In this document: positions 18,608-44,501 of the stretch, piece by piece | Position numbering within the stretch: the first letter of the stretch is position 1 | Layout: each line of letters opens with the position of its first letter | Source of the DNA: Protonemura montana | Lineage: Eukaryota > Arthropoda > Insecta > Plecoptera > Nemouridae | Length of the DNA stretch: 64,000 bases | Reading direction: 5' to 3' | NCBI GenBank assembly: GCA_947568835.1 | Contig: OX387602.1 | Coordinates: 12,017,021-12,081,020 of the forward strand | Made by a program: the position numbers and the translations under genes | Notes under the pieces: model-generated | Seen by the model: the letters and a program-made list of their open reading frames with translations, nothing else | The model's database searches: none | Told to the model about the DNA's origin: nothing

Positions 18608-18646
18608 GTTCTTTACCTGTTTTTTGTTTCTTTTTCAGGTAAGTAC
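18608..18646 (+). promoter_or_regulatory. Recursive splice site (ratchet point) 1, junction 18638|18639
   Basis: A pyrimidine-rich tract from about 18608 to 18636 ends in TTTTTCAG and is followed at once by GTAAGTAC, so a complete 3' splice site abuts a near-perfect U1-pairing 5' splice site with no exon between. In recursive splicing the upstream exon joins at this AG, which rebuilds CAG|GTAAGT and allows the next intron segment to be removed. Possible branch sequences are CTCAAT near 18580 and CTAAACT near 18570; neither is ideal in distance. The motif and its position are seen directly; use in splicing is inferred. Confidence 0.82.
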
Positions 18647-18717
18647 CTCTATCTACTTGACCTCTTGTCTTACGGAAAACGATGAAATTCACAACTCAAT
18701 CTGACTGGCAACAGAAG
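18639..18717 (+). other. Candidate recursive-splice exon 1 (79 nt, stops in all frames)
   Basis: This stretch runs from the ratchet junction to a second 5' splice site, AAG|GTAAGC, whose GT is at 18718-18719. Such an exon can let the 3' splice site be recognised by exon definition before the regenerated donor at 18639 wins and removes the exon again. All frames are closed: TGA at 18702 in frame 1, TAA at 18640 in frame 2 (part of the donor itself) and TGA at 18683 in frame 3. Its length is not a multiple of three. If kept in the mRNA it would truncate the protein and probably trigger nonsense-mediated decay. Splice signals and stops are seen; the exon's use is inferred. Confidence 0.6.
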
Positions 18718-21360
18718 GTAAGCGCTACTGTTTTGTCTGGCACAACAATTATCATTGCGCTGCAAACAAAAAGGGCCGTTTGCCTCACAACGGCGAGCAT
18801 GTCGAGAAAAAATTCGCGATGGACTCTAGCGACATTTCGTCGACGCCAAACAAGCGGAGCAAAAACATCGTCACAATTTACCGGAAACGAAATGACAAGC
18901 GACAAATTGAATATTGTGTAACTAACAATCATCCAAGTCCTGAGAACACGACGGCACCTTGTTCCAATCTCTCTTTTTTACTCCATTTTGGTTCCTCCAC
19001 GCGAAGGTAGTGTCTCTGGTAATTTCTTGATGCGACTAAATTGGCCGTGACGAAAGATTGTTTCAGAATAAGCAGAACCCTAAAGTATATTTGGCCCATT
19101 AAAACTGTTGCCATCATCGACCACCAGCTCGAAATATTGATTCTATCAAGCTTTGTTCTGGTTCTGATGGCACCAAAATGTCTTTGTCGCGTCTGTCGCT
19201 TGCCGCAGTGTCTATCGTATTTGATATGGCGTCACTGTCATCAGACAAATGAGAACGAAACTCACAAAAATAGTGACGTTCTTGTATAGATGACACTGAG
19301 ACAGCTTATTTCAGTTTTTATCTTTTTCTTTGTCGAGCTTTTGTCATTCGCTCTGTTCTCTTCGTGCGCGCCGCGCCGAGCGTCCTTCTTTTCTGCTGGT
19401 GCTGGTGGAAGATGTTCTCCTGTCACTCGGCCGTCTTGACGTGTGTTACAACGCAGACAAGAAGCGTAATAATGTTCAGTGACAGTTGTCAGTCGCTCGC
19501 GTTTCTTTTTCCGACGTTTTCCTCCTTTTCTTTCGTAAAACTTCGCGTAATGGAGTCAAGTTTTATTCCTGATTTCCTAACTCTTTTGGTCCGAAACTGT
19601 CAAGCAAAGCAATGGTTTTGTTTATTTATTTTTTCCTCATCTCTCTTATGAATCACGAACTTTCTTACAATGAAAACCGCAAATTCGTGATTTGTATCGT
19701 GCAAAATAGTCTCAGCACTATCTGGTTTGTGCCCCTGCATATCGGTGGGTGAACAGAGATGTAAACCTTTGAATTTAGAATTAGGCCAATTGCGAGCGTC
19801 AGGAGCAGTGCGTATACAGCTCGGGTCTAATTGCCGATTGAGATTCATACGAAACAAGTCGTCGTCTGTCGTTGTGAATCCTCTGCACGATGTCCCTTAT
19901 TCGTCACCCGAGCGACATGCCGTGGGTCCCAACCGAAAGGGACATATCCGACGTGCTACCCTCACGCGGGTTGCGTCGACGGCCACTGTCGCGAACAGGG
20001 TTTCATTTTACGGTTGAACGGTTGATCAGTTTGTTTGCATGACTGGGGGCTTGTCAAAGGGTTTGAGTGTAAGTGTCAACCATATGAAACTCAACAAGAC
20101 GAGAGGTTGCAGGACGGCACTACTGGTCGGCGTACATCCGCCTTCGTTCTGCCTCCGTTCTGCCTCCTCTTTACAACTGTTAGATTCTTCCACGACGCAC
20201 CCGACAACAGCGTCTCAACTTGACACGACGCGACGCAAATTTTCAAACATAAAGTTTCAAAGAGAGTGTGAGAACTTTTCCTATCTCTTAATTGAATAGA
20301 AAAGAAACTGGGTGGATTTTCATCACCTATGCTTTTATTGCGGCTGTGGGTCTCTGACATTAATTGTCTTTGAGTGAATCACCCTACAGCTTTTGAGTTC
20401 CATGGTTTCGACAACCTAGCGGTTGAACGTATAACGCCCATCCCCCTCATTCTCTTTTCGCAAATTGCAATTAGCTTGGCTTCCATTACAAGAAGAAATG
20501 CTATTTGAATTAATATAACCGTGTTAACATGGGGGATGGTACCTACCTTTAGGTAGCATGGAACAGTAGCAGCACATTTATTGAAGTGCTCAGCAATTAG
20601 GCAGACCTATCTTCATGTCTGCTTGGTGGCCAGCCTGTGGATGATTACCGTTCACGTCCGAGGCCACCATTTTGAGAAACAATCGATGCTCGTGATTATA
20701 TTGCTTAATGAGTAAGGTAATAGGATATGAGCTGGGCTTCATTACATACACCTGATACTAGTGGGTAGTGTGATTTCGTACCTTCAAGAAGAGCACGTGC
20801 TTTTGGTGTTGTACTGACCGTTAAAATCGAACATAAAACCGGCGCACACTGCAGATCATGTTCTAATAACGCGACACAAATGTTATGAAATGAAAAAATA
20901 ACAAGTACATTGTTCAATGCACAATCTGACACCTTTTGTTGGTTGTCTTATGTAAGCGAAATAACGGACGTGATCGGACAGCTGCATTTTAAAAGTAATT
21001 TAAAGAAAACGTGCGATTATCGAGACAAATGCTATCTCTTGAGCGAACAGAAATAGCCGCCAGAATGCGTGTAATCATGCGTGAATTGTGCATCACGGCA
21101 CGTCTTACATAATCCCTACCCTGAGAGCCGGGATAATTCTGTTCGTCTTCATTCTTTCCGGTCTCTCGTCTCTCAGTCTCGGAACTTCTTGATGACAGCT
21201 GTGAAGAAACAAACTAATTCAGGACCACAAACAATTGGCTGATCGGGTTGATTCTATAGAGAGTCTCTTTCATCATTGTCCGTGCCGTCTGCTTTAGGAG
21301 TAGAGACAGATCCGAGGAGCGAGTTGGTTCTCTGATGGATCCTTCGTGCACGTCGCTGCC

Positions 21361-21373
21361 TTCGTCGTCGTCG

Positions 21374-21407
<34 letters not shown>

Positions 21408-21409
21408 TG
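21361..21409. repeat. CGT/CGC trinucleotide island
   Basis: An almost pure run of CGT and CGC triplets, roughly 16 units, standing in otherwise AT-richer DNA. It is one of many short CpG-rich triplet islands in the window and is best read as a microsatellite. The arginine-rich frame it could encode is not part of a convincing ORF. Confidence 0.8.
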
Positions 21410-24400
21410 TAGTCTCTGTCCCGACTACCCCAATATTGCGCTGCAAAGCGACAATGGAGCAGACGCCTTAGAGGCTATCCCCTCAATCATGCAATGATCT
21501 GCTATGCGAAAACTTGCTCAAGCGAAGACGAGTGATACTCAACAATGGTGATTAACCAAAAGTGCATTGTATCCTATTCTAAACCCAGAGTATTGAAATA
21601 AACTATCGAGGCAATAATTGTAAATGATCGTTAACGTAGATTTATTTTTGTTTCTCTAAGTTATTATACGACATTCTAATAAGCACAAGATAAGTAATAG
21701 TCAATAGACATTGTGGTGTAGTGATTGCAGTACGCAGGTATCGCCGTAATCATAAAGTCTTTCATCAAAACATTCTGCGAGTCAGTTCCTGAGCGATCTT
21801 TTCAAAAGGCGCTTTGTCGGCGTACGTGGATACAATTAGGAGTGAGCGACATCTTGTAGCCCGTCAAGATGGTGAATGATGATTGCTTGTCATTTTCATA
21901 AGCAACAACATTTTGTTCGATGACGCTGCATGATCTGCTCCTATTGTTCAAGAGAATGGTGAAATTTTAAGATTCCGATACAATGGCTGGCATCATCTTT
22001 GAATGTACGAAAACTTGGAGCAAACAATTGTGTGATAAGTAACTGATGAACCAGAGAGCGAATGATTGCTGGAAACCATGGGGATAGAAGGAAAAGGGCG
22101 GATCCCGTCTGCGAACTCGGCACCTCCATCGGCAATTAGAATGGGCAAGCGGTATTGGACATGTTTCGCGCATGCGGGTATCATGCAAAAACGCTGTAAA
22201 ATCAAACTTGCTTCGATTTTGAACAGTCTTATTTTCAAAATAATACATGTTTTGTGCACATTACGAAAAATAAAAATTCTGTATATTGCAAAAATCACAA
22301 CATAAGCGTGAACTCAAGCTTAACCGCGTTTCTTTTCTATTCCGTTTCGCTACTTTTCAAGAGAATACTTGAAACGAAATCGTGGACCTCATTCTGAATG
22401 ACATCTTAATAACTCATTTGCCAGGTAGCCGATATTTCTTTGAATGTAGATCTTTGCGAAGTCTTGACGGCCTGTGCTGCTTCGTCGTCAGCAACACATG
22501 GACTTGAAAGTGACTCGCGCGACTCTCTTGAGGTTTCCACTGCGGTCTTTTCGTGTTCCCCGCAATTCGCCACGTCACCGTGCACCGGGCCGTTCTGCCG
22601 CCCCGGCCTCAGCCCCGGCCCATGCCACCTGATGGATTGTAGCTGAGTCTCGAAAATGACGAACCAGCCATCAATCATCTTCAACTCATCCAGCTTTGCT
22701 GAATCATGTATTGGGAACAGAAAGACTTCGGCATATGCTTCTTATCCTCCTCACCCCTCGGTCCTCTTGTACTCTCGCGGCTAACTTATTAATGACTTGG
22801 CAAATATTCAATAGATGAGATGCGATCCATTACGTCTCAAAGTCGTGCTGTTTGCACCGTCTACGGTCACACAAGCTACAAACAGAGCAGCGTACTTCGA
22901 TTAGAGGACAAAATCATGATTCACGTTTATTTTTGTCGAATTATACCTCATAAGCTTTTCCCCTGAAGTTGCCAGTTCTTGATTCATTTTGCTCATTTCA
23001 TATGTTACTGACAGTTAAAGATATAACTTCATTAGACCGTCGACAGACTTTGACTTAAAATCGAAAATGCATTTTATTGTTCAGCTGTTCATTTTGTCTG
23101 CAGAACTCGATCATTCTCAGTTCGAGTCTGAGAGCTGAAACAATGGACCCAACGCTCAGCTCGGCAATAAACTCAACGGAGATTTCATTATCAATTGACA
23201 TTGAATGAAGCTTGAATTTGATTGCCTGTCTATTCGTCCTCAGTTCATCAGTGCTTGATTGGCGGTATTGAAGACCTTCTTTCTATAACGAGCCGATTCC
23301 GAGGTAATGCGACTAGAATCATCTAGCGCAGTTCTTTACCTTCCACACCGCAAAAGAGATTCGAATGGTTCTGCTGAAACTGACAACCCAATATGACGAA
23401 CGGACATGCTTACGTCCATAAAACACTTCCGCGAAAATAGTGCAACAAAATTTGCGATTTTGGCAAACGTTCAATACTTAGCAATATAATCAATTTTGAA
23501 TTTCGTACGCACATCAGTGGCCGATGATTTATATTTTTGACGGTATAGCATGCAACGCTAAAACTTGATGGACACGTATTTGGCTGGCACCTCTCTTGTG
23601 CAAGTACGGGAATAAATTTCACGCATGCGAATCAATAATGACTGCAATGTGTGATTGCCTGACGTAAGAAAGAGTGACGTAACGCTATCAGGTGTCGTGT
23701 CTTGGAACTGTATCACGTGTCAATCCGTCGTCCTGACGATAGTCTTCCTGCCTTGTGTGCTAGGGGGCTTAGCTAGAGGTACCTGCGTTGGACCTGCTTT
23801 TTGTCGTGTCAGCTTTTCAGTTTTCTTGATCAATACAAGCGTAGAGAGTGCCACGAAACCTGCAATCTAGTGGCCATTATACCACCCGATTGGTAAATCA
23901 TCAGAACCTAATATTTCCCGAAGGTTTAATTCAACAATTTACATGTATAAATAGAACGAAAATTATGCTTCGCTAGCACGATTGGCTACTTTGTACGCAA
24001 CATGGTTGCCCCCGAAATCAAAATGTAATATTTATGGTCAAGATTTTGGTAAATGATATGCATTGGCATGTGGGCAATGTGAGACTGGCAGCACAGTACA
24101 GCACACGCGAATCACTCTAATGTATAAAGTGTCTTGATGGCCGAATGAATGACTCCTGGTGTCGATGGGTTTTCCCTCCTGCTCTCCCAAGGGAGCGCTA
24201 ACGCAACATTATAATGCTCGGCTTGCATAATGAGAGTGCAGAGACGCATTCCCGCCAAATGGCACAATACGAATGGTTATCTTTAATAAGACAAAGTGCA
24301 TTTGAGTCATTCAATGAAACAACCGACTAGACCCTCGTCTTTCCTCGACGCCCCATGTCTTCGGTAGATTTCCCACTTCCAGTTTGCAAACGAATCAATG

Positions 24401-24744
24401 CTCTCAGGTGGAGAGTTGAGTTCAAAGATCTACTGATGTTATACCGGACGGTTTTTCTACGTTACATGCGTGCTACAGTACAAGTACAATTACTTTTCTA
24501 GTAATAACACTCAGCCGAAAACAATTGAAGTGGAGCACGTTTTTCTTGTTGTTGCTATATTTAATTATATTAGCAGGAACTTCGTGTCGGAGGGCACTTG
24601 CCTGGAAGTCGGGTCGGGGCGCTCGTATCGGCCGATGGGCGATTAGCTTGATCGTCGGTACGGACTATTGGGCTTCGTTTAAAACACAAATAACGCCGGA
24701 TGAGGCTCGCGTTCCGCCTTACAATATGGTTATTGTTTTGTGCC

Positions 24745-24785
24745 TACACCGACGCCGACGCCGCGAGTCGGCCGTCGACTCCTTT
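24745..24785. repeat. CpG-rich GACGCC island
   Basis: Contains CGACGCCGACG at 24750-24760, the reverse complement of an 11-base word found six times in the second half of the window. Local composition is sharply more GC-rich than the flanks. Confidence 0.6.
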
Positions 24786-26084
24786 ACATTGAAAGCGGCA
24801 ACGGGGGAGGCTTTCTATGACCCATACAGAACGATTCATTCTGCAAATGAGAACTTTTCGAACAGAAACTGAAGTATTTGTATGCTGATTAGTAGCAGCG
24901 TAAACGCGCATAGTGTTTGGAATCGTCTTCTTAGCACGTGGGCACGAAGCGTCTACGCACTCCACAGGTTACGCGGGGGAGAGGAGCTTCAATGAACACT
25001 CGAACGTAATTTGTTTTAATAGCGAGACTTACTTAAATTAACGTGCGATAGGCACTAAAATTTGTATTCCAGCAAGGATGCGTACTAATGCACGCTACAT
25101 GTTCTTTGTGTTGATGCGTAACAACTAGACAAGTGCGTATACTCACAGTGTTACATCACAGATATACAATACCTTTACACAAACATGAAACAAAACAGGT
25201 CACTCAACACGATAAGCTAAAGATATTGCTACTAGGGGCGCAAAAGAGAAGAAATATATACGATAAGAATAAGTTATTTTTTTTTATATTGAATATTAAA
25301 GCGAAATGTGCCCTCCAGTTCACGTGCTATTGGCCCTCTGATAGTTATTACGGGCAATAGAAGGTTTCAGAACGTATTAGGTATGAAAGAGTGCACCTGA
25401 GATGGTGGCATCGCAGGACCTCCGCGCGACGCTGTGTACAGGGGTGAGCTCTTGGGTTCACAATACACAGTGTGTCTCGAATGGACCTCTGGACCAATAT
25501 CATCGCGCATCAGCATCCGAATGATGCAATTACCTATGGCAACTGCTCGCTTCCCTTTATCACCACTTGGAGCGAAACGCGGGCAAGTGAACAGAAGAAA
25601 TGAAAATGTGTTGGTTGGCAAATGTTTCAGAGGACCGGCCTCAGCCAGCCCCTGTATCGCCATCACACTGTTTATATTGACAACCGACATGCGCCATTCG
25701 TAATAGACAAAACGTGACGGTATCAAAAGAATTACTCCCAGCCGGCGAGATGTTTAAAAAAAATTTTCATGTAAGCTTTTGAAACATGAAAAAAAAAAAT
25801 CGTTTCAAATTTATTATAATTCTTATATATAGAAAGTAGAATTTGAGTTGTCAAAGGGAAAAAGGACATTTAACGTTGACAGTCAATTAAAACGGATTAT
25901 TTTCAGTGTGCGTTTTATATTTAATCAAGACGGATGGATTGATGCAGACATGCAGGCAAGAGGTTGAGGTATGTTTCTCAGCTAGCGGGCAGGAATAAGA
26001 GCAGATCTGTGCTCTGGGTGATCCGTTGGTTCCTAGCACGATATATGTGTGTCACATTGCAGTGTCGCGCTCTCTATTCTTAGC

Positions 26085-26135
26085 GAAGCCGACGCCGCAG
26101 ACGACGTCGAAGTCGGCGACGACGCCACGTGCTGC
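26085..26135. repeat. CpG-rich GACGCC/GACGTC island
   Basis: Fifty bases of interleaved GCCGAC, GACGTC and GGCGAC triplets ending next to a CACGTG-type E-box. It is low complexity and imperfect, of the same kind as the islands at 24.7, 45 and 54 kb. Confidence 0.6.
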
Positions 26136-29100
26136 CAACGAATCAATCAAGGCGACGCTATAATTTAGCTCTTTGTGAATAGGATATTAACGACGGATGG
26201 ATAGAAGCGTAATTCCTTGATTGGTCACGGAGCGCTGGCGTCCTATTCCTCCTGAAGCTCATTCCTGAATCCCAACGGAGCTATGAAAACTGCGAGTACA
26301 ATGGTCGCGCGTTGGGCTCAAGTCGAGGAGGGTCGCGGACGCGCAGATTCAGCGATTTGACGAATCCACCAGCACACAATGAGAAGATGAAAAACATTTC
26401 AGTCGTGTCCACAGGAGCAGTTGTCGACGTGTTTACTCATTAGCCAGGAAATCATTTTCAATATAAATTCGCTTGGCACATGTAGCGAGCTCACGAGCGC
26501 CAACTGGTGTAGCCAACGCCAAGACATTTTCCTTTCAATCAGCTCGTAGCACTCGGCAGGCGTAACTCATTCGGTGATATAATCAATACCGAGCTAATCT
26601 GAAATTCTATAGAAAGAGGGATCCTTAATCAACCGAAATCTTGCACGTTAGAGCTCAGCTACCCTTAGATTGACTGTCTGCAGTGGATCTCGTCACGTTA
26701 ATGATGAGCGACAGGTTGACAATGGTTGCCACGGTAACGTTCGGTGTGTTGTATGGCAAGCAATGTTTGTTGTATGGTGGATTTTCTTCTTGAAATAGGA
26801 GACAAGTTCGATGCAAATGTTTCGTCCGACACGTCTTCGCTTATTAGCTCGTAATTAGAAAATAATTATCTTTGGTAAGCAGAGCTGGGAAACTCTGTTA
26901 GGAGTTTATCAACATTAGGTTGTGTACGCGAGAAAGGGGGTGGTTGGGCGGGCTAACGGGTTGCGCTGGAATGGGGGGCGGGGGTAAGTTAGAAGGGCGA
27001 ACTGGTTGAATCACTAATATGACGTAAATCAAAGGGGTTGAATCATACTTCGTTACTATCCTCTGACAGTTAATGATGATTAAAAAGATTATATAAATTT
27101 ATTGTTTACCAGTGTTATCTCTCAGAAGGATTCGTATGTTAATTCACACCCTCCCACTCTGAAGTAATATATTAAAATATCCTATTTACTCCAATTAGAA
27201 ATGGTCTGCATATAAAATATCATGTTATTGCTACGGGGACACAAAAATACCACTCATCGTAACTCAAAACGCTCTAAAGAAAATTAGCTACAGAGTCGGG
27301 CAATCCTTTTTCCTCTTAAATCCCCAAACATACCACGTGTCTATCTCTTTCTCACTCTCCTTCGGCACCGCTCGACAAGGAACCTGCATCCCCGCTGTCC
27401 AATTACAGCTCCACATCATAGAGATATGCAAATACCTCTCACTTCACCCTCATGCTAGCTTTGAGATACCTACTTTATTTGCCTTAATCTCAGCGGTCAT
27501 ATTGTCTTTCCCGCGTTTCTACTTAGACACTTAATGCATCGCTGGTTGTCGGACGTGGGGAGCCCACCGCTGGTCATCTCCGGCCATGCTAATGCTCTTG
27601 TATGGGAAGCGACTAGATGTTGAATGCAATTAGCGCTATGTCTCTATCCATACGAGCCGAGCTCATTGAGTGTCCAGGCGAGCAGACCAAGCGGTCACCT
27701 GAGCTGACCAAAGTCCTTTCCACTTACTTATCAACCGGCAACCTCTTTCGAAACGTCGCCACGGACAATTCGATCGCGCGAATTTACGCTCATTTGGTTG
27801 AAATTGGGATGACAACGGTAACTAGATTTGCGTCCCCCTGATGAAGGACCTGCTATCGGCGCCACAGGCCCTGGCCCGCCTGGATGCGCCGAGACGCGGG
27901 CAAGGCACTGGGAAAATAACCAAAACATGCTTACACAGAGATGAGTTCTTGTCGCAGCTTGCCCGGCCACGGATGATCACTGGAGGAACAATAGCTGTTT
28001 GTGAAATTTGTGGCTGTCGGATGCTCTACAAGCGACCTCCTCAATCAAAATTATGACAAATTCGTTAATTTTAATTGTGGATTCAACGTTCTGGATCGGG
28101 CTGGGTAGAACGGTTCCCCCTTCCAGAATGTCGGTGGTGAGATGGCGTTTGGGCAGTGATGACGTATTGATAGCAACAGCCAGCCAAAAGGAATGGGGAC
28201 GAGTGGCAACAGCAGCCGAGAAGAGTCAAGACTCACGTAGAGAAAAGCGAGATAAGCAGCAGATACGAGACAAACACGCGCACAAGGCAGTCACACACAC
28301 ATACACACAATTTACTCTCGGTTCGGACATAAATCTCTCTGCTGGAGCGATTCATCAGCCCCTCATTCGAAGTATTGTGTAGCAAACAGACTGCTACCAC
28401 GGCAAGGCTTCAGCGAAATGGCAGAAAACCGAACGGCCAATATTTTACAAGTTTTTGACAACCGGGATGGCTTTTCCATCTTTGTGAGACTCGGATAGAT
28501 GCCGGACACCTGTGCTTTTTTGAGGGGTACTCCGGGCGGGGTTGAAGGGAGGCTGAGTATGGGTGGCAGGAGGGGTTAGAGTGGGGGCAACGGGCCCGTT
28601 CGTTTATATGAGTGAGTTACGAGAGAGAAGGAAACATCGAGCTTTATCCATTGAAAGAATGAAGAAAAGTATAGAAAAACCCCTTAAAATCTCTCCCAGT
28701 TACCCACTTTCGGGGTGTGTGTAGTATAGGCACCTCTCTATCGCACGCACAGCGATCGGGTATACTCCTGTTTCTTACTACCTTATAAACCCCCCCGGTA
28801 GCCCCCACTCCTGGCCCTGATTTATGTGATTCTGGAATCATGGCTCGGAGGAGAGCAAGCATACAGCTTGGATATTTATTTTATACATCTGTTCCCCTTG
28901 ACATAATGTCCCTCTATATATCGTGTGCATGCTTTTAGAGTGAAGGCTGTTAGTGAGAGAGATATGCCGACATTGAGCATTGCCAGCAAGAGACAGACAG
29001 TAGACGCCGCTGGAAGGGATGGATAGATGGCATCTAAAGGGATGAAATGGCTACGGGAGTGCAGCAATAACGAAATACGTATATATAGTACTACAATGCA

Positions 29101-29222
29101 GCATACCATTCCACGTTGTTTAGCACTTGGCAATTGCAACCAATGATGATGGCATGCTTCTTTAGGCAGCTATTATTTTAAGTTTCCAACTCATAAAACG
29201 CGAAATCTTCTCTGTACTTTGA

Positions 29223-29260
29223 CTAATGATGTGTTGTTTTCTCTTTTTTCAGGTAAGTAC
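29223..29260 (+). promoter_or_regulatory. Recursive splice site (ratchet point) 2, junction 29252|29253
   Basis: The best formed of the three sites. CTAAT at 29223-29227 is a good branch-point match with its branch A about 26 nt before the AG. It is followed by a T-rich tract ending TTTTTTCAG at 29252 and then directly by GTAAGTAC. Branch point, pyrimidine tract, acceptor AG and donor are therefore all present and ordered as in a ratchet point. Motifs are seen; function is inferred from the known architecture of recursive splice sites. Confidence 0.87.
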
Positions 29261-29370
29261 TGCGCTGAGCGACTCGATAAGAGATTCATTTGACGAGCCT
29301 TCTTAGCGGGGCAATTAAAACGGGCCTAATTCGTGATAGCTGGCCTCGCCAGTGGCAAGCGTTTCATCAG
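29253..29370 (+). other. Candidate recursive-splice exon 2 (118 nt, stops in all frames)
   Basis: This stretch is bounded by ratchet junction 2 and by a second donor, TCATCAG|GTAAGTACC, with GT at 29371-29372. The downstream donor matches the regenerated donor over CAG|GTAAGTAC, so the two should compete on nearly equal terms, unlike at sites 1 and 3. Stops close every frame: TAG at 29304 in frame 1, TAA at 29254 in frame 2 and TGA at 29291 in frame 3. The length is not a multiple of three. This is the most likely of the three to appear as a real alternative poison exon. Confidence 0.68.
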
Positions 29371-29832
29371 GTAAGTACCTCAGGACAAAGCCCAGGAGGA
29401 TTTGCCTTTACCCGCGGTCGACGCTTGGACAGTGTCGTCGCTGCTGAAGGTCACCAGTCACCGCGCAGACCGCGACCGTTAAACGGGCCGCCAAAAAGCA
29501 ACCTCGCCCTTTCTTTAGCCGACGGGGGAAATAAAATTCCTGTTCATCTTGACAACTTCGGCACGCTGTCATTGATAAATGTACAAATATTTATTTAAAT
29601 TTAAATTTGACATTCCAAGCGGTGATTGGAAATAATTGAAAAACAACGGATATTGTTAATTATCTGCAATGCCATAGTTCAGATCTCGTGTTTCACTTCC
29701 GGGGGACTTAACTTTTTTTTATCTTTCGTGACCCAAGAGCATGTGTTGTCATTCGTCTAAGTTTCTAAGCGCTTCGGAGCGGGGATGGGGACGACTGCCG
29801 AGGGTTTTTAGCATATTGACGCCCGGCGGAGG

Positions 29833-29887
29833 GTCGTGTCAGCGTCGTGTCAGCGCCACGTCAGCGCCGTGTCAGCGCCGTGTCAGC
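29833..29887. repeat. 11-bp minisatellite, five units
   Basis: Five head-to-tail units of GYCGTGTCAGC at 29833, 29844, 29855, 29866 and 29877. The third unit has CACGTCAGC in place of CGTGTCAGC. A further partial GTCAGCG follows, then a CGCCGGCGGCGTC stretch. The 11-bp period breaks the reading frame, so this is a minisatellite and not a protein repeat. It lies about 460 nt downstream of recursive exon 2. Confidence 0.85.
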
Positions 29888-30402
29888 GTCAGCGTAGGCG
29901 TCGCCGGCGGCGTCTCTCCATACGACTGTGTCAACTGTCACATATTTGCGCTGAGTTAAGACTTTCGCTCAAAAACTGTCGCACGGGATGTAAAACTGAT
30001 GCAGCTTTGAAAAAAAAAAGGAATTGAGATATACTTAACGCGCTTTCGTCGTCACGGGATGACACGGGTGAAGAAAAAGCGTGCCTTTTGCTCGTGAAAA
30101 GGAAAAATAAAACTTTAATTTCGTTCCATCAGGCAATGTCGTTGGCCCGTGAGTTTTCTTCTACGTTTTCGGGCACAAAAACAACAACAAAACGGTGCAA
30201 TAATCATTACACTTTACAGGAAAAAAAAATTAGCCAAATCACACGAATGTTTCTTCTACAAGGAGTTTGGTTATCGATCTGTTGGAAGGGTGGATGGGGG
30301 GTGAGACCATGTATTTTGATCGGCGTCCTGTTGAGTTACACGACAGATTTCAAACTTAAATACGCGGCACAATCGTTGTAAGTAGCAACGAGCACGCGAA
30401 TG

Positions 30403-30416
30403 TATATAAAAGGAGC
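30403..30416 (+). promoter_or_regulatory. TATA-like word TATATAAAAGGAGC, copy 1
   Basis: A good TATA-box match. The nearest initiator-like sequence, TTTAGTG near 30441, is a few bases farther away than usual. The same 14 bases recur at 50666-50679. Promoter activity is only a possibility, since AT-rich introns produce such words by chance. Confidence 0.2.
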
Positions 30417-30555
30417 AGCAGCATACCTTCGTATAGGTTTAGTGCAAGTCACATTATATAGAGACGATATTGTATAAGTGGTACTTAAACTTCTTGTTGT
30501 CGTATATAAAGGCTTAGAGCCCGTGCCACGGTTTTGATGCCATGGAACTGTAATA

Positions 30556-33221: not shown

Positions 33222-33241
33222 GGGGGGGGGGGGGGGGGGGG
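33222..33241. repeat. G20 homopolymer
   Basis: Twenty uninterrupted G residues, preceded by a further G6 and a T. G runs of this length are rare and may form quadruplex structures in DNA or in a + strand transcript. The exact length is a likely site of sequencing or assembly error. Confidence 0.85.
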
Positions 33242-33580
33242 AGGGTGCTAAGCATAACTAAGTCGAGACATGTGCCTCGATCTTCCATCTCTGTTCTCGC
33301 GAGAGCTGTCCATCCCACCCATAGCACTACTCGTCTGTCAGGAGATCAATCATCTCTCGCCGAGGGATGAAAATTTCCGATTCACACAACAAACGAGGAA
33401 ATCTTCTTTATCCTCAGTTTTCTTCGCTCGTTTCCTTCTTCTATTGTGGCTAATTTGATCGTTTTTACACAACTGGTGAATATTTTTCTGGTCCGAGATG
33501 GCCTATATTTGATCGAAAAGAAATGCGAATCAAATGATCTTGTTGTTAAGGGGTGCCATTATTTGTTTTGGTAATTTGTG

Positions 33581-33641
33581 TATAAAAGCGATAAGTTCGG
33601 GGTATAGGATGTTCAGTAACTTTCTAGTAGTTTGTGCAAAG
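33581..33641 (+). promoter_or_regulatory. Possible internal promoter: TATA box, initiator and short leader with donor
   Basis: TATAAAAG at 33581-33588 is followed by the arthropod-type initiator TTCAGT with its A at 33615, about 34 bases from the first T of the TATA box. That is slightly longer than the usual 28-32. A leader of 27 nt would then end at AAG|GTAAAT, GT at 33642, which could splice to downstream exons. No downstream promoter element is obvious. An alternative first exon inside a giant intron is common in such genes, but here it rests on three short matches only. Confidence 0.27.
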
Positions 33642-34738
33642 GTAAATTCAATTCTTTTACTTTCTTGTTACTTAGCCCCTTCCTTACACCTTGCTTGGCA
33701 GGCGCCCTAAGCGTCTCGTTGCAAGTTATTAATCGAAGGCAGACGCCAGTTTTTTTCAAACGGCACGCCGGTTTTTCGCTGGTTAACCGCGAGCAGTCTG
33801 TTGAATGGTGGTCCCCATAGCTGTGCGCGCATCATTAGCTCGAATCTGAATAATTGTCGGCGGGAGGGTGATGACATACTCCCAAAGGGAGTCTTGGCCG
33901 AGGGAATCACTCAATCCAGCGCAGTCGACAGGTACATATACCGTCGTCAGGGGTCTACAACGCTTTTTTGTCATCATTGCAGCGAAGGTATTCGGCAAAA
34001 TTTGGGTAGCTCATTTTAAACGGAGAATTTATTTTCTCTTTCCTTGAAATAATTTCTCTTTTTGCGGTTGACAAACAACAAAATACACTAGAAGATAAAA
34101 AAAAACCTAACATTTTTAAAAATGATTTTTACTAACGAAACTCTTTTTGCAAAGCTTCTAAAAAAAAAACGTTTAAAATTTAATTCGTATATAAATCTGA
34201 CAGAGATTAAATGGAAGATGTTAACGGACGATTAGTCTAGATTAAGTTGTTAAAAGTTTGTGATGCAGGCGCGTGTTAGGCTTGCTTATCGTTCATGTGA
34301 ACTAGGGTCAGCGCGTCTATTGTGAACCCCTGTCCGGGACCGAGGTGCTACGGGACAGCTTCTCTCCGCCACGGCAGCCAGCCTCCTTACAATTCCTTGC
34401 TGGTACATCAATGATGTTGACTGATGAGCCATCTTTATACTCACACGATGTTACACTCAATCATTAGGGTTAGATTAGAGTTAAATAATTGCGCTCTCAC
34501 AAAACGAAATTGTGAAAGGTTGACCAACAAGTTTCTTAACACACAATGGTTTAAATAATGTTGTCTACTTCTGTGTTTTGAATTTCGAATGACACGGTTC
34601 GAACTCTGTCTGCTGACACGTGAGCTCAGTTAAGAAAATTGATGGGGAGTAATTTAAGTATGCATATATTTTTTCCTCTATTTGCCAAGCGTCATTGTGA
34701 ACGAGCTATGTTTAAGGGTTGGATGAAGGGTATACACG

Positions 34739-34756
34739 CGGCACCGGCACCGGCAC
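34739..34756. repeat. (CGGCAC)3 hexanucleotide repeat
   Basis: Three units of CGGCAC, the same unit in another register as the repeat at 2882-2904. Confidence 0.8.
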
Positions 34757-35044
34757 TTGCAGACCACCACCGTCACATGACAGCAGTGCGAGCATTCAAG
34801 ATGACGTGACGTGGACCTCTTTCTCTTCATCCCATTCTGTCCCACTCATTCTTGCGCTTTCATTAGCATCCATCAAGTCGTGAAACAAAAGAGCGTTCCA
34901 CCTCCGTCCACCACCCACTGTCCTACGAACCGAATTGCATCTCTCCGGCGGAGAGGACAGCGAGCGAAGGGTTATTAGCGACAAAAGCACACAAAAACGG
35001 CGGGACTGATTGACCTGTGTGTGGAATACAAACCACGAAACGCA

Positions 35045-35073
35045 ACACACACACACACACACTACACACACAA
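35045..35073. repeat. (CA)n microsatellite
   Basis: CA repeats interrupted once by a T. A simple repeat with no other content. Confidence 0.9.
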
Positions 35074-35836
35074 GCGGGAATGAATTGCTGGCACATGCAT
35101 TAATTAGTTTGCCCGACAGCACGTCTTGGGCACAGTCTCCAAAACGGATTTGATTTGGTTGTACTTCTTCGATTGATAGCTGCCGCTGCTAATGGAAACG
35201 ACAGAAAGACTCTTGAACAATCTAGAAAGTCTATTTTAACACTGATGACCATAATTTTTTATCACCTCTCTCACTATTAGTTAGAATTAATTTCGGTTTC
35301 ATTTGCGGATTCCGTTTGATTTCACGCGGGATTGGTCGCCTCAGATGAGTGCATTTGTTGTATGGAACGCTTCCGAGAAGACGAATAGCGATCGCAACAG
35401 CATGGGCCGAAGCCTAATTAACCAACAGCAGGCAGACAACCTTCCGCCACTTTCCCGCTCACTACGCCACAAACAGTAGGTACACATTTCAGATCCTAAA
35501 TGGACACGGCCTCTTGGTTCAGATTTTATAACCTCACTTTTCGATCGCCGCGATCGCGTGCCTTTTAATCCTCAGCAACCTCATCAGCATCTTCATCATC
35601 ATCCATTGCGAATCCCAAAGCACATTACAAGACTTACGCGTGTGCTTAAACGCACCGGCCTTCTCATATGTTACCTTACGACGTACAACAATGCGTATAG
35701 TTATGTTTTGGTCATTAGCAGAATAATATGTGAGACAAGCCATGATGTGATTAAAACCGGCACGGACGCAGCTGTTCCTTCTCCACAAACAATTACGATA
35801 TCTGTCTGTCTGTCCAAACACACACACAAAGTAAAC

Positions 35837-35882
35837 GGGCGGCGGCGGCGGCGGCGGCGTCAGCGTCGGCGGCGGCGGCGCG
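35837..35882. repeat. CGG triplet island
   Basis: Two blocks of GGC/CGG triplets joined by TCAGCGTCGG. On the opposite strand the six-residue proline and similar runs in translated frames are artefacts of this repeat. Similar to the CGG island at 14298-14330. Confidence 0.85.
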
Positions 35883-36318
35883 TTGTTGCCCATACTGAAG
35901 AGACGTAATTCACAGTACGCTGCACATGTTTGGAATTGGCGACACAGATTAATACGCTGCTTGCCCGGGAACGCCAGGGACACATCTTTGTCATACGTCC
36001 TCATGTTCGAAGCTTTTTCAACAAAATCTATAGGTTTTATTGTTCAATATTTTGATTATGGTAATGCACAAGGTTTTCGTATCATGGCCACTGAATTTTG
36101 AATTTTATTAAATTATTTTTATCGTCTTTTGATTTCCCGCAGTGTAATTATGAACGTTCTCGTGACATGTTTTGCTCGGACTATGGGCCATAGGCAGGTG
36201 GGGAGGTTGACATTCAGTTTGCATGTGATGCGGTGCAGTGCAGCAGGACGGCGAGTAGTCCTGCGGCGACCAGTCTCTTGCTCTCTTGCACTTGTCAGGG
36301 GTGATGGCCCTCTTGTCA

Positions 36319-36332
36319 GGGGGGGGGGGGGG
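36319..36332. repeat. G14 homopolymer
   Basis: Fourteen uninterrupted G residues inside a CAGG...GGCGTCG context. Confidence 0.85.
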
Positions 36333-38615
36333 CGTCGAGACCTCTTCGTCTCGCAGTGCAGACCTGCTGCAGCTAGCGTTTCAACGGAGATGTCTGTCAC
36401 TGCTGTTGGACGTCAGATTAAGAGCTGTGGCTACCACCCACTCAACCGCAAGGACCAGTCGATCAAATTTCTTTGAATTTTTAAACAGGAACGTTTCAAG
36501 GACGACTGAAAAAAAAAATTGATAAAAAAGTAAATTGTGGACGTAAACAAAGACCGGTGGTGAAAAGGATTGTGAATAGCTTTTAGTTTTGGCGTTTTGA
36601 ATAATATCTCATATTTCGTGATGCATGCTAGTGTGTGGGGGCATGAGCAAACCAGACTCCCATTAAAAACGTTTATGGTAACGAATCCATGAAATTTTAT
36701 GGTTTTATTACTTTTACATGATGATTATCATACCTGCATAGAAACCACCGATGCTAAATTCGCCATTTACTTGCCGTTTCTTCTAAAAGCAATTAATTAC
36801 AAGAAAATTTGCGTACACCTTGCATTGTAATAAATAAATTGACCTTCCTTTAATCACGCGGGCAATGACCACTGCAATGACATGCAAAGAAGTCGCTACG
36901 CATTTTCCTACCAGATCTTAGAAAAGAATCTGACCGAATACGACCGAGCGAAAGGTCGCTTATGTCACCAATTTCAAAGTAATGGCACATTGACGTTTCT
37001 TACACATTTTTGTTCGCACCAACGTTTGATCCTTTGTCTCTGCGTCCTTCCACTCAATTCTTTCTATCCAAGCGTAAAAATAAAACTAAACCCTAATAGA
37101 CACCGGTTTTTCTTTACGTTTTTTTCGTCTCTTTTGCCCACTAGTTAAAATCGCATGAACCTATCAGTTTGTCGGGACCTATAGCTTGACCGGGTCACTC
37201 TTCGCTCCATGAATGATGACCGAGGACACTTCCATGGCGCCCTGTCACCCTGTCCGTGACCCGACTTGACCTGATCCGCCGTCAGGCGCAGGCTCATAAC
37301 TGCAAGACAAGTGCATCCACAATGAGGAGAGCAACTTTCTCAATTACTCATATGCCCCTATTCAGCGCAAATCCACGTGTTTTATCTGTGAAATGCTAAT
37401 TAGTACTAAGTACAACTCGGCCTGTCAACCAGTTCATTTATTAAATTGTTAATTTATGCAGTTTGGATAAAATTCTCAACAGAATTGACACTGGTTTCAT
37501 TGCTAGTTTATAGTTCGACCCATTAAATTTTATATCTCCTTAGAAACAATGACACAATCAGCTGGTCATAATATTAAAAATGCGTTACAATTATCAAGAC
37601 TTAGATCAAATTACAATTATACCATAATATGAATATTCTTCTCGTGCGTTGAATCGTAACGTGCAATCGTTATCAAGTAGGTGAATTACAATGCTTGATT
37701 ATTGTCACACTTGGCAAGTTTACAGCCCACCTACCTAGCCACTTCCTTTGGCTCGCACTGCACCACTAGAAGCGTACATGAGCCATACTAAAAATCAATC
37801 TTTCTGCTCTATGCTAGCCACTGAATTATACCACATATCTTTGAAAATATGTGCCTGTGTTTAGTATGTTTTCTCAGGAAGGATGAAGGAGTGTGCTCGT
37901 GTGTAAATGTGCAGGAGTGGCCAAGATTTACGACCTATTTTGACCTTAGCATAAAGGAGGAGGTCAGCAGGAGCTATACTCCCCCGTAGGGGGGCCATTG
38001 GAGACTCGACAATGCTGACGATGTCACTCATGCTCAGAGAGTATCGAACAAGATGCGGTTTCGACAATAATTCTCGAAATCTGACATATGCAAATTATGC
38101 TGTTTCGTTAGTTTCTTATAAATTGTATCTCGGTATGTTTAAGAATGTGGACGTTAATAAGTGGACTACAATTAATTTTAACTAAAAAAGTACATCTTTA
38201 TTATTTTTGTGCAATCAATTATGTTCCCACTGATGCAATATCGAAATAATTATATCAACTGTATGATAATAAAAATAGGCAAATAGTGTGGGCAATAAAC
38301 GGCGTTTATGCAGCCCATGAATTGCATTCTCCGCCATCAGAACTTGTTGGACAGGAATAGAAAATCATGTTTACGACATCAATACTTATTGCATTCATTA
38401 TTTTACCATAAAAACCCGACACATCTCTCTGCAGTGAAGTTCTGGCTCATACACAAGGAGAGATAGTTAATCATAGCTGGAGGTATCATAAGATATCAAA
38501 TGTTCATCTCGAACGCTTTCTCATTACATCGCTCAGAGTGACCTTTCGTTTATTGCTAATCATGAGTAAGCAATCGCCGAGCGTGATAGACAAGGAAGCG
38601 CGTCTAATCAGACCC

Positions 38616-38627
38616 GGCACCTCCACC
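38616..38627 (+). repeat. GGCACCTCCACC word, copy 3
   Basis: Third exact copy, preceded by CCC. AGACCC just before it and GGGTCT at 38648-38653 are complementary, so an RNA could present the word in a loop. The pairing is only six bases and may be chance. Confidence 0.7.
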
Positions 38628-40368
38628 ACGATCATCGCATTCTGATTGGGTCTAGCGCCGATCGAAATACGGCCACAAACTTAATGCAATATCCTTAAAA
38701 GTCATTGCTTGAGATTAGATATAAGGTAATTTCGCTGAACCATTTGACTTTCTGTATAAAATAAAGCTGAATCGTCTCTTTCCAATCCTTTGCGTGACGG
38801 CAACAGCCGATATGAGAATGAATGTGATGTTCATGCTAGCTGTTCTGATAGATCCACACAGAAAAGCAATGCCATCTCGGGAATCCTGGACCTGTTCTAT
38901 CAAACTTGATGGTTAGTTCCGCTCTTGAAAGTCGTCTTTACGACTCCGCTCTGGCATCCACTTTAAAACCGTAGATCGGTGTAATTTCAAGTCATAAGAT
39001 CATCTTGAATAAAACTTGCCCAGACCTGAATAAATATTGTCAAAACCTAACGACAAAGTCAGAGGGTCAATGAGAGTTCATTCGTTCAATTTAATAAAAA
39101 TTGCTAAACACGGCGAGTCTCGTAAATATATTTTGAACCCTTATACGGTGTCTTGAGGCGAGCCAGGATTCGTGCAGTGTTAACATTGCTATCGAATAAT
39201 GCAATTTACAACATGCCTTGCGTCCACATATTGCTTGCTCAACGATCACCTTCGAACGTTCACATTTACATGGAAATTTCTCAAAATATGCCAAAAAAAT
39301 ACCGAGAATACTCAAAAAACCGAGGCCCGTTTTGGATGCTCGCTTTTATTGAGTTGAATCGTAGCCAAGAATTTAACAAACCCTAAACTATGTGAAATAT
39401 TCAGGTTAAACTTCATCTTAATGGAGCGTTCAAGGCAAAAAAAAAAAATCCCTTAAAACAGATATCAACACACTTAGTGCGCGTGCTATTTCCGATTATT
39501 TTCCAAATGCAGGGGACTGTGACCCCTAACGAGGGGTATTCGTGCGGAGCGTCGTGACATTTTCAACTGTCGCAGACGTAGGAAGGGATGCATGGTCTTG
39601 ACATGACTCCCATACACTGAATTAGTACACAGTGTCGGTAAATTAACAGTCACCTGTCACAGGGTTTCACCTCAGACTTGACAGTCATCTTCTTCTAGCT
39701 TCTTCCCTATCCAGCCCGAAGCAATTCATTTCTCCTGTCGTGTATCCCAACGAAACAGGACTTTGTCATCCCATCTCATCTCGCTATGATTGCCTAAGCA
39801 CACTACGACCGTGGCACATCATCTATGATATCTTTACAGCTTCTTGCAACATTTACTTTATACGATGTCATATTTGTGTTTGTTGGCCAAATTCCAGTCC
39901 AGAGAGAGGTACAGAAGTGTCTGCTAATACACTGCAATTTTGAGGTGTATCACTAGTGCACTTCTCAAATAGAATTACAATAACTGCGTTCTTTTTTGGT
40001 TGCAGAGCATAGGAATGATGACATAAGGTTACTCCAAGTCAAATGTGCCCAAAGATGGGCTAGTTTCCACTTTTAGCCTCTCTTTCTTAAAGTCCAAAGC
40101 ATAATGGAGATAAATTGTCAGAAATTTTATTGTTCAAAATCTTCTTTTGCCCACGTGAAATATTGTTTTAGAAAGAATTGGATTGGAGCTGAGATATCGA
40201 GTATAATCGATGTCCATATGTCTCTTAAGATTTCGGTGAGAAAGCGAGTAAGAGATGAAGATATCTTATTATGGGAATCTCTGCGTGTAGGAGTGAGAGA
40301 TTCGCAATCTCTTTCTCTTCCATCTAAAGGATAGCCCGACGGCGTCCCTCGGCACGTTGCTGCAGAAG

Positions 40369-40379
40369 CGTCGGCGTCG
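40369..40379 (+). repeat. CGTCGGCGTCG word in a CpG-rich stretch
   Basis: First + strand copy of the 11-base word shared by the islands of the right half. GTCGTCGTTGGCGTC follows, so the rich stretch spans roughly 40365-40425. Confidence 0.65.
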
Positions 40380-40698
40380 GTGTCGTCGTTGGCGTCCACG
40401 GGCAAGGGACGGCGGCGCCCACGACGCGGTCTTTATTATTAGCGGGTTGGAGACAAAGTTATGATGACTGGGTCTCTTCTTCGCTCCCTGCAGCCAGGCA
40501 GGTTCCTTGTCATTTGGGGACATGACGCAAGATGTATGTGACTTGCTCCCATCCTGCAATAATCCTTCGGAGCGAGAAGAAGACGTGATTGTTTCGAACT
40601 CGGTTCGCCGCCGTGGAAGGAGGCCATCAATAATAACTTTTAGAGTAAAAATGTCACGTGGATATGAGTATGATATAAATCTCACACGTGTACCTCTA

Positions 40699-40722
40699 TG
40701 TGTGTGAGAGTGTGTGTGTGTG
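40699..40722. repeat. (TG)n microsatellite
   Basis: TG repeat interrupted by AGAG in the middle. Confidence 0.85.
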
Positions 40723-42380
40723 CCTGTTTGGAAAATAATATACGACGACATTTCATCCAGTTAGTGTTAGTACAAAATAATTCTTAATACCGTTTCATTA
40801 TGTTGAACCATTTGCAAATGTAAGAAAAGAATCTTTTATACTGTCCAACGATCAAAGATGTCTTCTGTCGAAAGAACTGGACATCTCTTATATCGTTAGC
40901 TGAACATTTTCACGATTTCAATAGCATGATTTAAAGATTAGAACTAATGTGTGCATGCCAGCTTGTCCAATCCGTTGTACTTAACAATTACATGCGTTAT
41001 TACTTATTACGCTGTCCAATCTTAGAGCCAAAATATATTTCCCTACACTCCTCAAGCAAGGCATTTTGCAATGTCACCCGTTTGCAGAGTGGTAAATTGC
41101 ACATAGCACGTTAGTTGACTTGTTGCTTTAGTTCTCCACATGAACTTGCTCGAAGACAGTGATATTACTGGCTATAGAGCTTGCATGGCCATGGCACCTA
41201 GGTCCCGCGAACTGCGACAAGCAGGAACAAACAGCACCTACCGCACCGTGAGACGCATGACTAAAAGAGGGTGCGGAGGGGAGCTGCTTCTGCTGCTGCT
41301 CTGCTCTGTTGTTGACTGTTTCTATCACATTACGATACAACACTCATACACATCATATATATGTTGGATAATATAACGTCTCATGAAAATATAAGCCAAC
41401 AATCTGCAAGAGACACCTTCCTTAGCTTGTGTTCCGTGTCTCGGTGTTGTCTCAGCTGCCTACAGCAACTATTTCACAAAGAAACTCTGCTGGCTGCTCT
41501 GCACACCCCAATTAGAACCTGATGACAAAGTTTCACAAACACATACACACACATCAAAACACCAAACTCTTAGCTTGAGTTGAATCTTCTTGGTGAAGTT
41601 ACATCAGCTTAGCTTGATTTGTTTTAAATAATGTCTGGGTGTAATTAAACTGTGGATAAGAAAGGTGATGGGCACCTGCGTGTAGCTCTTGTTTTCTTTT
41701 GTCGTTGCGGGCAGGTGCAGTGGGTGGGTGGTGCTTTCTTGTTGGTTACCTCCTCTTGGCTGTCACTGACTTTCGGAATTGTTGGGAACCTGTGAACGTC
41801 TTCGAAATCTACGCACTGACACAGATCGTAAATTTGACGAAATATATTGAAACTATCAGCTGAGATGCTATTTCCATTAAATTTATAACTGATAGTCGAG
41901 TAGAGACCGGCCAAGTTCATATTATTCTAATCCGAAGTCTTGAAAGTGTTTTACCGGACTGTGGCTCTTGAGAAAGATTTTTTTTTCAAGTGAGCTTATA
42001 ATGAAGCCCGTGATCCGAGATGCTATCCATCTTGCAGCGTCTTCATAAGACATTCTTTCACATTCTCACATCTTCGCAGGAACGTCGCGAGAAAGAATCT
42101 CACCAGAATATACTTGTCGGACGGAATCCGACGACGGGGATAAATAGCGATAATTAGGAGACACCGATGCTGAAGCCAGCCAAACTCGCTTCAGCCGACG
42201 ACCTTATCAATAAACCCTTTCTTTAGTCTCTTCTCTCGCTAGTGATGAGCACTCCTGATTTTCTAATTATGAACCAAGCAGACAATCAAATAGTTAAGTT
42301 TATTATCTTGTTTCAATTCTCAAAGATGGCAGTCGTTGTTTGGCTTGACCTATCCATCAAGCATGCCTCGCATCGGTTTG

Positions 42381-42392
42381 GCCGCCATGTTG
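42381..42392 (+). promoter_or_regulatory. PHO/YY1-type binding site
   Basis: GCCGCCATGTTG contains the GCCGCCAT core bound by YY1 and the fly Polycomb recruiter Pho. One site does not make a Polycomb response element, and I saw no cluster of GAGAG or further GCCAT sites around it. Confidence 0.22.
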
Positions 42393-42538
42393 TTTGATGG
42401 GCGTGTGTTTTATAGAAGGTTTCGAGCCTGGTGGCTGTTGCCCTTGGGATAGTCACACTGTTTCTGCAATGTCTGCAACCTGTCCACATAAATCTGTCAT
42501 CCGGAGCGGAGCGGCTCCGCGAGCGGCCCGCTAGGTTG

Positions 42539-42567
42539 GTGCTAGCTACTAGCTAGCTAGCTAGCAC
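42539..42567. repeat. (CTAG)n repeat forming a palindrome
   Basis: GTGCTAGCTA at 42539-42548 is complementary to TAGCTAGCAC at 42558-42567. The intervening bases continue the CTAG repeat. A GC-rich hairpin, GCGGAGC/GCTCCGC, lies just upstream at 42506-42520. Confidence 0.75.
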
Positions 42568-44465
42568 ACGCTGGCTGCCGGAGCGCGCGTCAGGATAAAC
42601 GAGGCGATATTCGCGGGGTGCTAAAAGCAAACCCGTGTGTGCTGCGATGGGCACAACTTAAGCGGTAGCACACACTATTTATACCCCTTCGTTTATAAGT
42701 CGGTGTTCCGCACTTTTTTTTGTGTGACGGCCGAGCTTTTTTTTGTGCTGTTTTTTTGTTCCTTTTGGTGACAAGGAGTTCGAGGTCTAAAACCTGCAAA
42801 GACGTTTTGTTACTCAGCGGTCATCAGGAATCTCATGTTACACATTGCTTTAATTGATTATTCATGAGAGTTATTGGGCGACAAACTTTTTGCGACTGGC
42901 ATTTTGAGTTTTTTCTTTTAGGGCGCTTAAATTCATGTGGCTCAATTTGGGATCGAACGCTTTTTATTTGATGAAACCTTTAACTTTGTTGCGAAAATTA
43001 TTCATTGGCCTTGTTATCAACAAACGTTCAAAAGCTGAGAAGATTCCTAACAATAATTCTGTTTCAAATCTCAAGGTCAAATGACGCATGGTGATTGGCT
43101 AGACTAGAGACGGGCTCTCATTGGCTGTTGCCTAAGTTTCAAAACACATAGAAAGCGAAACATTAGTTTAACTATTTCTAAATGATATATGAATTCTAAT
43201 GTAAATAATTATTTGATACAATGTTGAGAATTTCTGTGACTAAAACTGATTCCGTTACTCTTGGACATCTCCCTCATGTCCGTCAAAAATGTTGTATCCC
43301 CGTAAATAAGTCTGCATCTCTCTGTCAAGCCCCAAGTCACCCCTTTCATTACCAAAGTAAACAACTCGATCAGATATTCTTATCTTTCACAGATGCTTCT
43401 CTCTTTAATATGCATTTATACAAACTTTGAGCTCCCTTTGAAATATGCCAATACCATTACCACATTTCCATTAAAACAACGTAAAAGTAAGTTCCATCAC
43501 AACATTGTCCCATTTTATGAATAAACTCCAATGATTACCTCGTGCCAATTATAAAATACAATTTCCTCACACAAAATTTCCACCTCTTACCCCCTAAATA
43601 GTCTCCCCCTTGTCATTGTGCCTATGTATACCCATTCCACCACCCTGTCCCGCCCCCATTCCGTTCACGGAGGGGTGGGGTATGTCAAATAACATGAGGA
43701 GGGGTAGAGTCGATCGAGATCCAATCAAACCATAACAGTGTAACCCTGAAATTCGAAACCTGTAGTTCAAACCAAACAATTATATTACAATACAATAGAT
43801 GATCGGTTATTTGACTTGAATATTTTGTAAACATTTCAATAGACATTGCTTAACAAAGCAATTATATTAAAAAACGCGATTTTTTTTCTGACGCTATATA
43901 ACCTCACTTTTTCTTAGTTAAAACGGTTCAAGTGTTTCTTTGTTTGAAATCTAGATAGTACTTGATATATCACTCCACTTATTCAAGACTTATGGTACAG
44001 TTTCTAGTCTGTACCTTCATAACTATACGATGTGAATTATCGTGGTAGTGCGTGCATGGACGCAATCATCTAGCCGCTGTGATCCACGACCCCTGGATGC
44101 TGATTGCCTTCCGATACGAATTACTATCCGTGATTGAACAATCGCCGTGATTGCAGCACTGATGCAGCGCATTAGCACCTGGCCTTACCGTAGATCCAGA
44201 TCAGAACAGAAAGACAACTTAGTTATTACGTGCTGCCTATGTTTCACGCCAGAGTACCTGTTATTTCTCATCTTACTCTAAGGTTTATGTGTCGATAATT
44301 TAAGTGTTTGATATGAGAAAATATAACTGCGTGATATTATTATATTTATAATTACACAAAATTGGCTGCAATTTCTCAGGGCACTCGTTTACCATATGCT
44401 GGGGACAAAATGCACGTCTTTAACGTATCTTCGTTGCATGATCTCGTTTCACAAAATGACTTGTG

Positions 44466-44501
44466 TTTAATTCATTTATTTCTTCTTTTTTAGGTAAGTA
44501 C
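44466..44501 (+). promoter_or_regulatory. Recursive splice site (ratchet point) 3, junction 44493|44494
   Basis: TTAAT at 44467-44471 is a fair branch-point match, about 23 nt before the acceptor. The tract TTTATTTCTTCTTTTTTAG then abuts GTAAGTAC. The acceptor is TAG here, CAG at sites 1 and 2. The order branch point, pyrimidine tract, AG, GTAAGT is again complete. Orientation matches the other two sites. Confidence 0.83.

Follow-up and report, generated by a model that had tools for sequence, protein, structure and literature searches.

Three candidate ratchet points on one strand of a 64,000-nucleotide DNA stretch point to a probable giant intron removed by recursive splicing

Does an unannotated stretch of 64,000 nucleotides (nt; positions 1-64000, hereafter the window) belong to a giant intron that is removed in steps, and where would these steps fall? 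The question arises from a preliminary description of the window, which reported YAG/GTAAGTAC (Y, pyrimidine; the slash marks the splice junction) behind a long pyrimidine tract at 18638/18639, 29252/29253 and 44493/44494, all on the + strand (sites 1, 2 and 3), and interpreted these sites as ratchet points of recursive splicing. The intronic ratchet points of Drosophila (Ubx, kuz, Bx, Ten-m and others) have the same juxtaposed acceptor and donor, the pyrimidine tract and a CAG/GTAAGT core. We conclude that the three sites are very probably ratchet points (RPs) of a recursively spliced giant intron in an invertebrate gene, with the + strand transcribed and the intron removed stepwise. This is the best explanation because three features match what has been described of recursive splicing in flies: the gap between their scores and all others, their restriction to a single strand, and a strong second donor 79 nt below site 1 and another 118 nt below site 2.

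Exact matching bears out the motif at all three positions. YAGGTAAGTAC has four exact matches in the window, all on the + strand (at 18636, 29250, 29368 and 44491), compared to a mean of 0.01 in shuffled sequences, and none of 100 shuffles reached four. A count gives no ACTTACCT, the core reversed, anywhere in the window, as had been claimed. The fourth match (29368-29378), missing from the preliminary list of three, is found 118 nt below site 2. It resembles a donor and not a ratchet point because it has no pyrimidine tract: only 10 of the 20 nt before its YAG are pyrimidines, compared to 18, 17 and 18 at sites 1, 2 and 3. By itself, AGGTAAGT is not rare, with four occurrences observed for 1.43 expected (6 of 100 shuffles reach four) and none on the - strand of the window; the improbable part is its combination with the tract, the strand and the extension. 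Among the 24 GTAAGT on both strands, the extension to GTAAGTAC is found only at the three sites and at 29371, a comparison made after the fact, as the extension belonged to the motif originally reported. AG/GTRAG[TC] occurs six times on the + strand (the three ratchet points, two second donors and one instance at 52829) and never on the - strand; the counts for AGGTRAG are 11 and 1.

The acceptor halves of sites 1, 2 and 3 rank 1st, 2nd and 7th among the 3462 AG of the + strand, and the branch-like sequences described upstream of sites 2 and 3 are both present (CTAAT with its A at -27, and TTAAT with its A at -24). We scored the window with a normalised juxtaposed-splice-site score (RP score) of the type used for fly sites, with our own matrices. 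The three sites have strong juxtaposed 3' and 5' motifs around AG/GT, with RP scores of 0.966, 0.956 and 0.946; the best other scores in the window are 0.821 (+) and 0.808 (-). Fly ratchet points generally score above 0.85, albeit with different matrices (PMC6110457). The combined scores are 26.9, 26.4 and 22.7 bits, followed by 15.1 (+) and 14.2 bits (-) for the next best positions.

Several estimates indicate how often such sites would arise by chance. Two hundred first-order simulated strands gave 0.01 sites per strand at least as good as the weakest of the three, with a best score of 22.9 bits. None of 60 third-order and 60 fifth-order Markov strands reached an RP score of 0.945 (best, 0.911). 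RP scores of at least 0.85 appeared 0.35 (order 3) and 0.75 (order 5) times per simulated strand; a single site just above 0.85 would therefore be unconvincing. Independent pairing of the real acceptor and donor halves of the window predicts 0.00014 such sites, an estimate that rests on a single acceptor among 7127 and a single donor among 373. The excess over chance is confined to one strand and comprises three sites.

In all five invertebrates tabulated (mosquito, bee, beetle, sea urchin and fly), introns longer than 50 kb have an excess of RP-sites on their sense strand, with 0.48-2.2 per 100 kb compared to 0-0.12 on its complement (PMC2773006, Table 2). The three sites per 64 kb on the + strand and none on the - strand found here are not comparable with these rates, as the window was chosen for its sites and other matrices were used. 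The sites are 10,614 nt (1 to 2) and 15,241 nt (2 to 3) apart; as originally proposed, this spacing of 10.6 and 15.2 kb fits fly ratchet points, being near the 9-15 kb reported as typical of fly recursive segments (PMC6110457).

Bare counts of other signals also differ between the strands. AATAAA occurs 44 times on the + strand and 63 times on the - strand (1-64000), a difference that would be in keeping with a + strand intron that avoids poly(A) signals. TTTTCAG occurs eight times on the + strand and twice on the - strand. Both counts agree with + strand transcription. T exceeds A on the + strand. Pyrimidine runs of 12 (79 on +, 112 on -), CTRAY (207 and 262) and AGGT (177 and 199) do not favour the + strand.

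Ratchet points in flies reportedly depend on a cryptic exon that is bounded downstream by a donor of its own and that is first recognised and later skipped (PMC8605326). A second donor of this kind does not enter the motif score. The preliminary description recognised the three sites and overlooked these possible recursive-splicing exons (RS-exons). At site 1, AAG/GTAAGC follows after 79 nt and ranks 5 of the 3802 GT on the + strand. At site 2, CAG/GTAAGTAC follows after 118 nt (29371), with the top score among the 3802, tied with ratchet points 1 and 2, and is identical to the ratchet point itself over 11 nt. Site 3 is followed by TAC/GTGAGT after 78 nt (rank 116) and by another donor after 206 nt (44699; rank 36). 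A background for donors 30-150 nt below a position was obtained from 40 simulated strands each for Markov orders 1, 3 and 5, in which the frequency of so good a donor was 0.004-0.005 for site 1 and 0.0002-0.0004 for site 2. On the real + strand, with no positions excluded, the frequencies at the three donor thresholds were 0.0056, 0.0106 and 0.201, the first two arising mostly from the sites themselves. When 20,000 positions were sampled, with those closer than 400 nt to the sites excluded on the + strand, none had a donor of at least 12.85 bits and 0.0009 had one of at least 10.9 bits (a single donor); since this exclusion removes every donor of at least 12.85 bits by design, the larger simulated figures are used here. 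Thus, the downstream donor of a putative cryptic RS-exon is found at two of the three sites (1 and 2), which supports candidate exon-defined ratchet points there. The 79- and 118-nt elements resemble the cryptic RS-exons of fly ratchet points, and the putative counterpart at site 3 is weak.

What the sequence shows are the sites, their scores, their restriction to one strand, and the second donors of sites 1 and 2; from these we infer that the stretch is transcribed, that the sites are used and that the cryptic exons are skipped. The + strand would be transcribed through a very long intron, which would be removed in steps. At each ratchet point, the spliceosome would recognise a short cryptic exon, of 79 nt at site 1, 118 nt at site 2 and perhaps 78 nt at site 3, through its strong acceptor and downstream donor. 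Joining of the upstream exon to the ratchet AG would recreate a donor (exon/GTAAGTAC), which would be preferred to the cryptic exon's own, so that the next segment would leave and take the cryptic exon with it. What would remain of the ratchet donor at this second step is only its intronic half, with the exonic bases contributed by the upstream exon. The sequence cannot show the order of removal that the sites had been said to give; we assume 5' to 3' because nascent RNA in flies mostly supports it (60 versus 5 and 829 versus 13 junction reads at two sites; PMC6110457).

The outcome of such a competition would depend on the two donors at each site. The intronic halves of the ratchet donor and the second donor are GTAAGTAC and GTAAGCGC at site 1, GTAAGTAC on both sides at site 2, and GTAAGTAC and GTGAGTAT at site 3. 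Based on this comparison, sites 1 and 3 are predicted to skip the cryptic exon, and inclusion would be sought at site 2, where the two donors are predicted to be balanced. In fly Bx mutants whose RP donor is weaker than the second donor, the exon is included, and in kuz mutants inclusion began only once the RP donor was significantly weaker (PMC8605326); the kuz result therefore speaks against inclusion at a tie. In reporters, inclusion was not always in line with donor strength, and other factors can override it (PMC8605326). Putative RS-exon 2 could, though improbably, be a natural toggle, at which regulation would decide whether the 118-nt exon with its stops is skipped entirely or included. 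As the two donor halves at site 2 are identical, the choice would shift to other factors and may be set by the last bases of the upstream exon, by exonic elements or by splicing history, while the other two ratchets of the intron may lean to skipping. Against such a toggle, the tie may simply skip, as the kuz mutants suggest.

Several points weigh against the interpretation of the sites as ratchet points, or weaken parts of it. The splice matrices are approximate and not trained on the source species. Site 3 would be less secure on its own because the first-order simulations reached 22.9 bits, compared to its 22.7. Its second donor is at chance level (0.18-0.20 in simulations and 0.196 in sampled real positions). 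No YTRAY is present in the 70 nt upstream of site 1, where only CTTTAC, with its A at -24, was found by eye. The RP donor of flies is generally, if not strictly, stronger than the RS-exon donor (PMC8605326), and this is true here at two of the three sites, with a tie at site 2. The putative RS-exons (79, 118 and 78 nt) are longer than the ∼50 nt of fly RS-exons (PMC8605326). All three contain stops in all three frames, and two of the three lengths are not divisible by 3, properties shared by fly RS-exons (PMC8605326); the stops are only consistent with RS-exons because GTAAGT itself contains one and stretches this short often have others by chance.

The alternative that survives best, which we nevertheless regard as improbable, is that these are expressed RS-exons, comparable to the Ubx m1/m2 microexons, or ordinary cassette exons that start with GTAAGT, with one or more of them present in some mRNAs, possibly as a poison exon. 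The elements at 18639-18717 and 29253-29370 do carry complete exon signals and are the two top-scoring exon candidates on the + strand; the identity of the two donors at site 2 and the departures of reporter inclusion from donor strength (PMC8605326) point the same way. However, all frames are closed in all three elements, and at sites 1 and 3 the intronic RP donor looks stronger (GTAAGTAC versus GTAAGCGC and GTGAGTAT). To our knowledge, ordinary exons rarely begin with GTAAGT, which also counts against expressed exons.

A much less probable explanation is chance, with the sites being unused look-alikes in DNA that is not transcribed or is transcribed in the opposite direction. The motif was picked after the sequence had been seen, AGGTAAGT alone is only moderately in excess (4 versus 1.43 expected), simulated strands hold 0.35-0.75 sites of at least 0.85, and a partial Pfam search turned up no gene. 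What speaks against chance is that none of the 120 simulated strands has a 0.945 site, together with the strand bias and the presence of a second donor below each of sites 1 and 2. Dispersal of the sites within a repeat or transposon, as four identical 10-mers (AGGTAAGTAC) in one window might suggest, is barely credible, as the window has no direct repeat of at least 40 nt (exact seed 16) and the site flanks are unrelated (six comparisons, P 0.085-0.905), so that the sites are not copies of one repeat. Viral contigs do not contain an exact 21-mer taken from site 2.

The ratchet-point interpretation implies a host intron around the sites. The earlier statement that the window is intronic can be argued at most for about 18.6-44.5 kb, and the flanks would be intronic only by extension; the partial search found no host exon. 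A Pfam scan of all 205 + strand open reading frames (ORFs) of at least 55 amino acids (aa), 133 of the 207 - strand ORFs of at least 55 aa (those of at least 64 aa) and 10 shorter + strand stretches (8 of the 301 + strand ORFs of 36-54 aa, and two stretches of 30 and 31 aa) gave no convincing match. Matches taken as chance comprised 11 families at E values up to 0.1 in a set of 100 ORFs (best, Flu_M1 at 0.0033), six families in a set of 105 (best, 0.028) and seven in the set of 133 (best, Dishevelled at 0.013), each family in a single ORF of its set; the 10 shorter + strand stretches had no match. Exons that are short or lack a recognisable domain could have escaped the scan, and this null result allows an intron without proving it. 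A tRNA search and an Rfam search of the window (repeated up to E = 1) found no RNA gene.

The window contains no further strong ratchet site in the 18.6 kb before site 1 or the 19.5 kb after site 3. A fourth ratchet point at 52786 is doubtful, as its RP score of 0.782 lies within background; the stretch at 52787-52829, 8.3 kb below ratchet point 3, is kept only as a doubtful exon or weak ratchet point. A donor-like GAG/GTGAGAC in a GC-rich stretch (3380-3400), 15.25 kb upstream of ratchet point 1, is a possible end of an upstream exon. An inverted repeat at 52264-52462 has 94-nt arms with 94% complementarity and an 11-nt spacer, and the RNA fold of 52255-52475 is at -140.8 kcal/mol (z -24.8); the element looks like a foldback or a miniature inverted-repeat transposable element and has no Rfam match. 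About 0.6 kb below ratchet point 2, a tandem repeat of CGTGTCAGCGC (29835-29888) is present in 4.9 copies. The G+C content of the window is 43.7%, and its CpG observed/expected ratio is 1.075, which we take to suggest only an animal lineage without CpG depletion, such as dipterans or some mites. The link to flies made in the preliminary description concerns the segment sizes, and a fly as the source would go beyond what the sequence shows.

Table 1. Candidate ratchet points, putative RS-exons and predicted segments in the window
Feature	Position	Strand	Remarks
Acceptor half, ratchet point 1	18616..18638	+	Tract and CAG; 18/20 pyrimidines; AG rank 1/3462; RP score 0.966, highest in window
Donor half, ratchet point 1	18639..18646	+	GTAAGTAC
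Putative cryptic RS-exon 1, 79 nt	18639..18717	+	Followed by AAG/GTAAGC, rank 5/3802; three frames closed
Acceptor half, ratchet point 2	29230..29252	+	CTAAT upstream; 17/20 pyrimidines; AG rank 2/3462; RP score 0.956
Donor half, ratchet point 2	29253..29260	+	GTAAGTAC
Putative RS-exon 2, 118 nt	29253..29370	+	Followed by CAG/GTAAGTAC at 29371; three frames closed
Acceptor half, ratchet point 3	44471..44493	+	TTAAT (A at -24); 18/20 pyrimidines; AG rank 7/3462; RP score 0.946
Donor half, ratchet point 3	44494..44501	+	GTAAGTAC
Weak putative RS-exon 3, 78 nt	44494..44571	+	Followed by TAC/GTGAGT; alternative donor at 44699 gives 206 nt; 78-nt form closed in three frames
Predicted recursive segment, 10.6 kb	18639..29252	+	Deduced from ratchet points 1 and 2
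Predicted recursive segment, 15.2 kb	29253..44493	+	Deduced from ratchet points 2 and 3
Doubtful exon-like stretch, 43 nt	52787..52829	+	TTTTCAG/GTATGG ... ACAAG/GTGAGT; acceptor 6.6 bits; donor rank 4/3802; one frame open

Beyond the motif, the candidate sites share with the ratchet points of Drosophila the presumed sense-strand orientation, segments of about 9-15 kb and a short downstream cryptic exon, here putative, with its own donor. In contrast to Drosophila, putative RS-exon 2 has the same donor as its RP, each of the three RP donors continues to GTAAGTAC, and the sites are known from sequence alone. Among vertebrate RS-exons, such as those under the control of the exon junction complex, the RP donor likewise competes with the RS-exon donor (PMC8605326). 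Mammals have mostly expressed RS-exons, with only nine fully suppressed intronic RPs noted definitively (PMC8605326), compared to three strong sites in a single window in the present case.

The known mechanism is unchanged by these observations, and the intron would be a further case of a known kind. If the interpretation is correct, a multi-step intron and its transcribed strand were recognised in unannotated DNA from the sequence alone. The three sites would then provide three natural pairs of ratchet and second donors in a graded series (a stronger RP donor, equal donors, and a stronger RP donor with a poor second donor), and would allow the donor-competition model to be tested, perhaps in an animal other than a fly.

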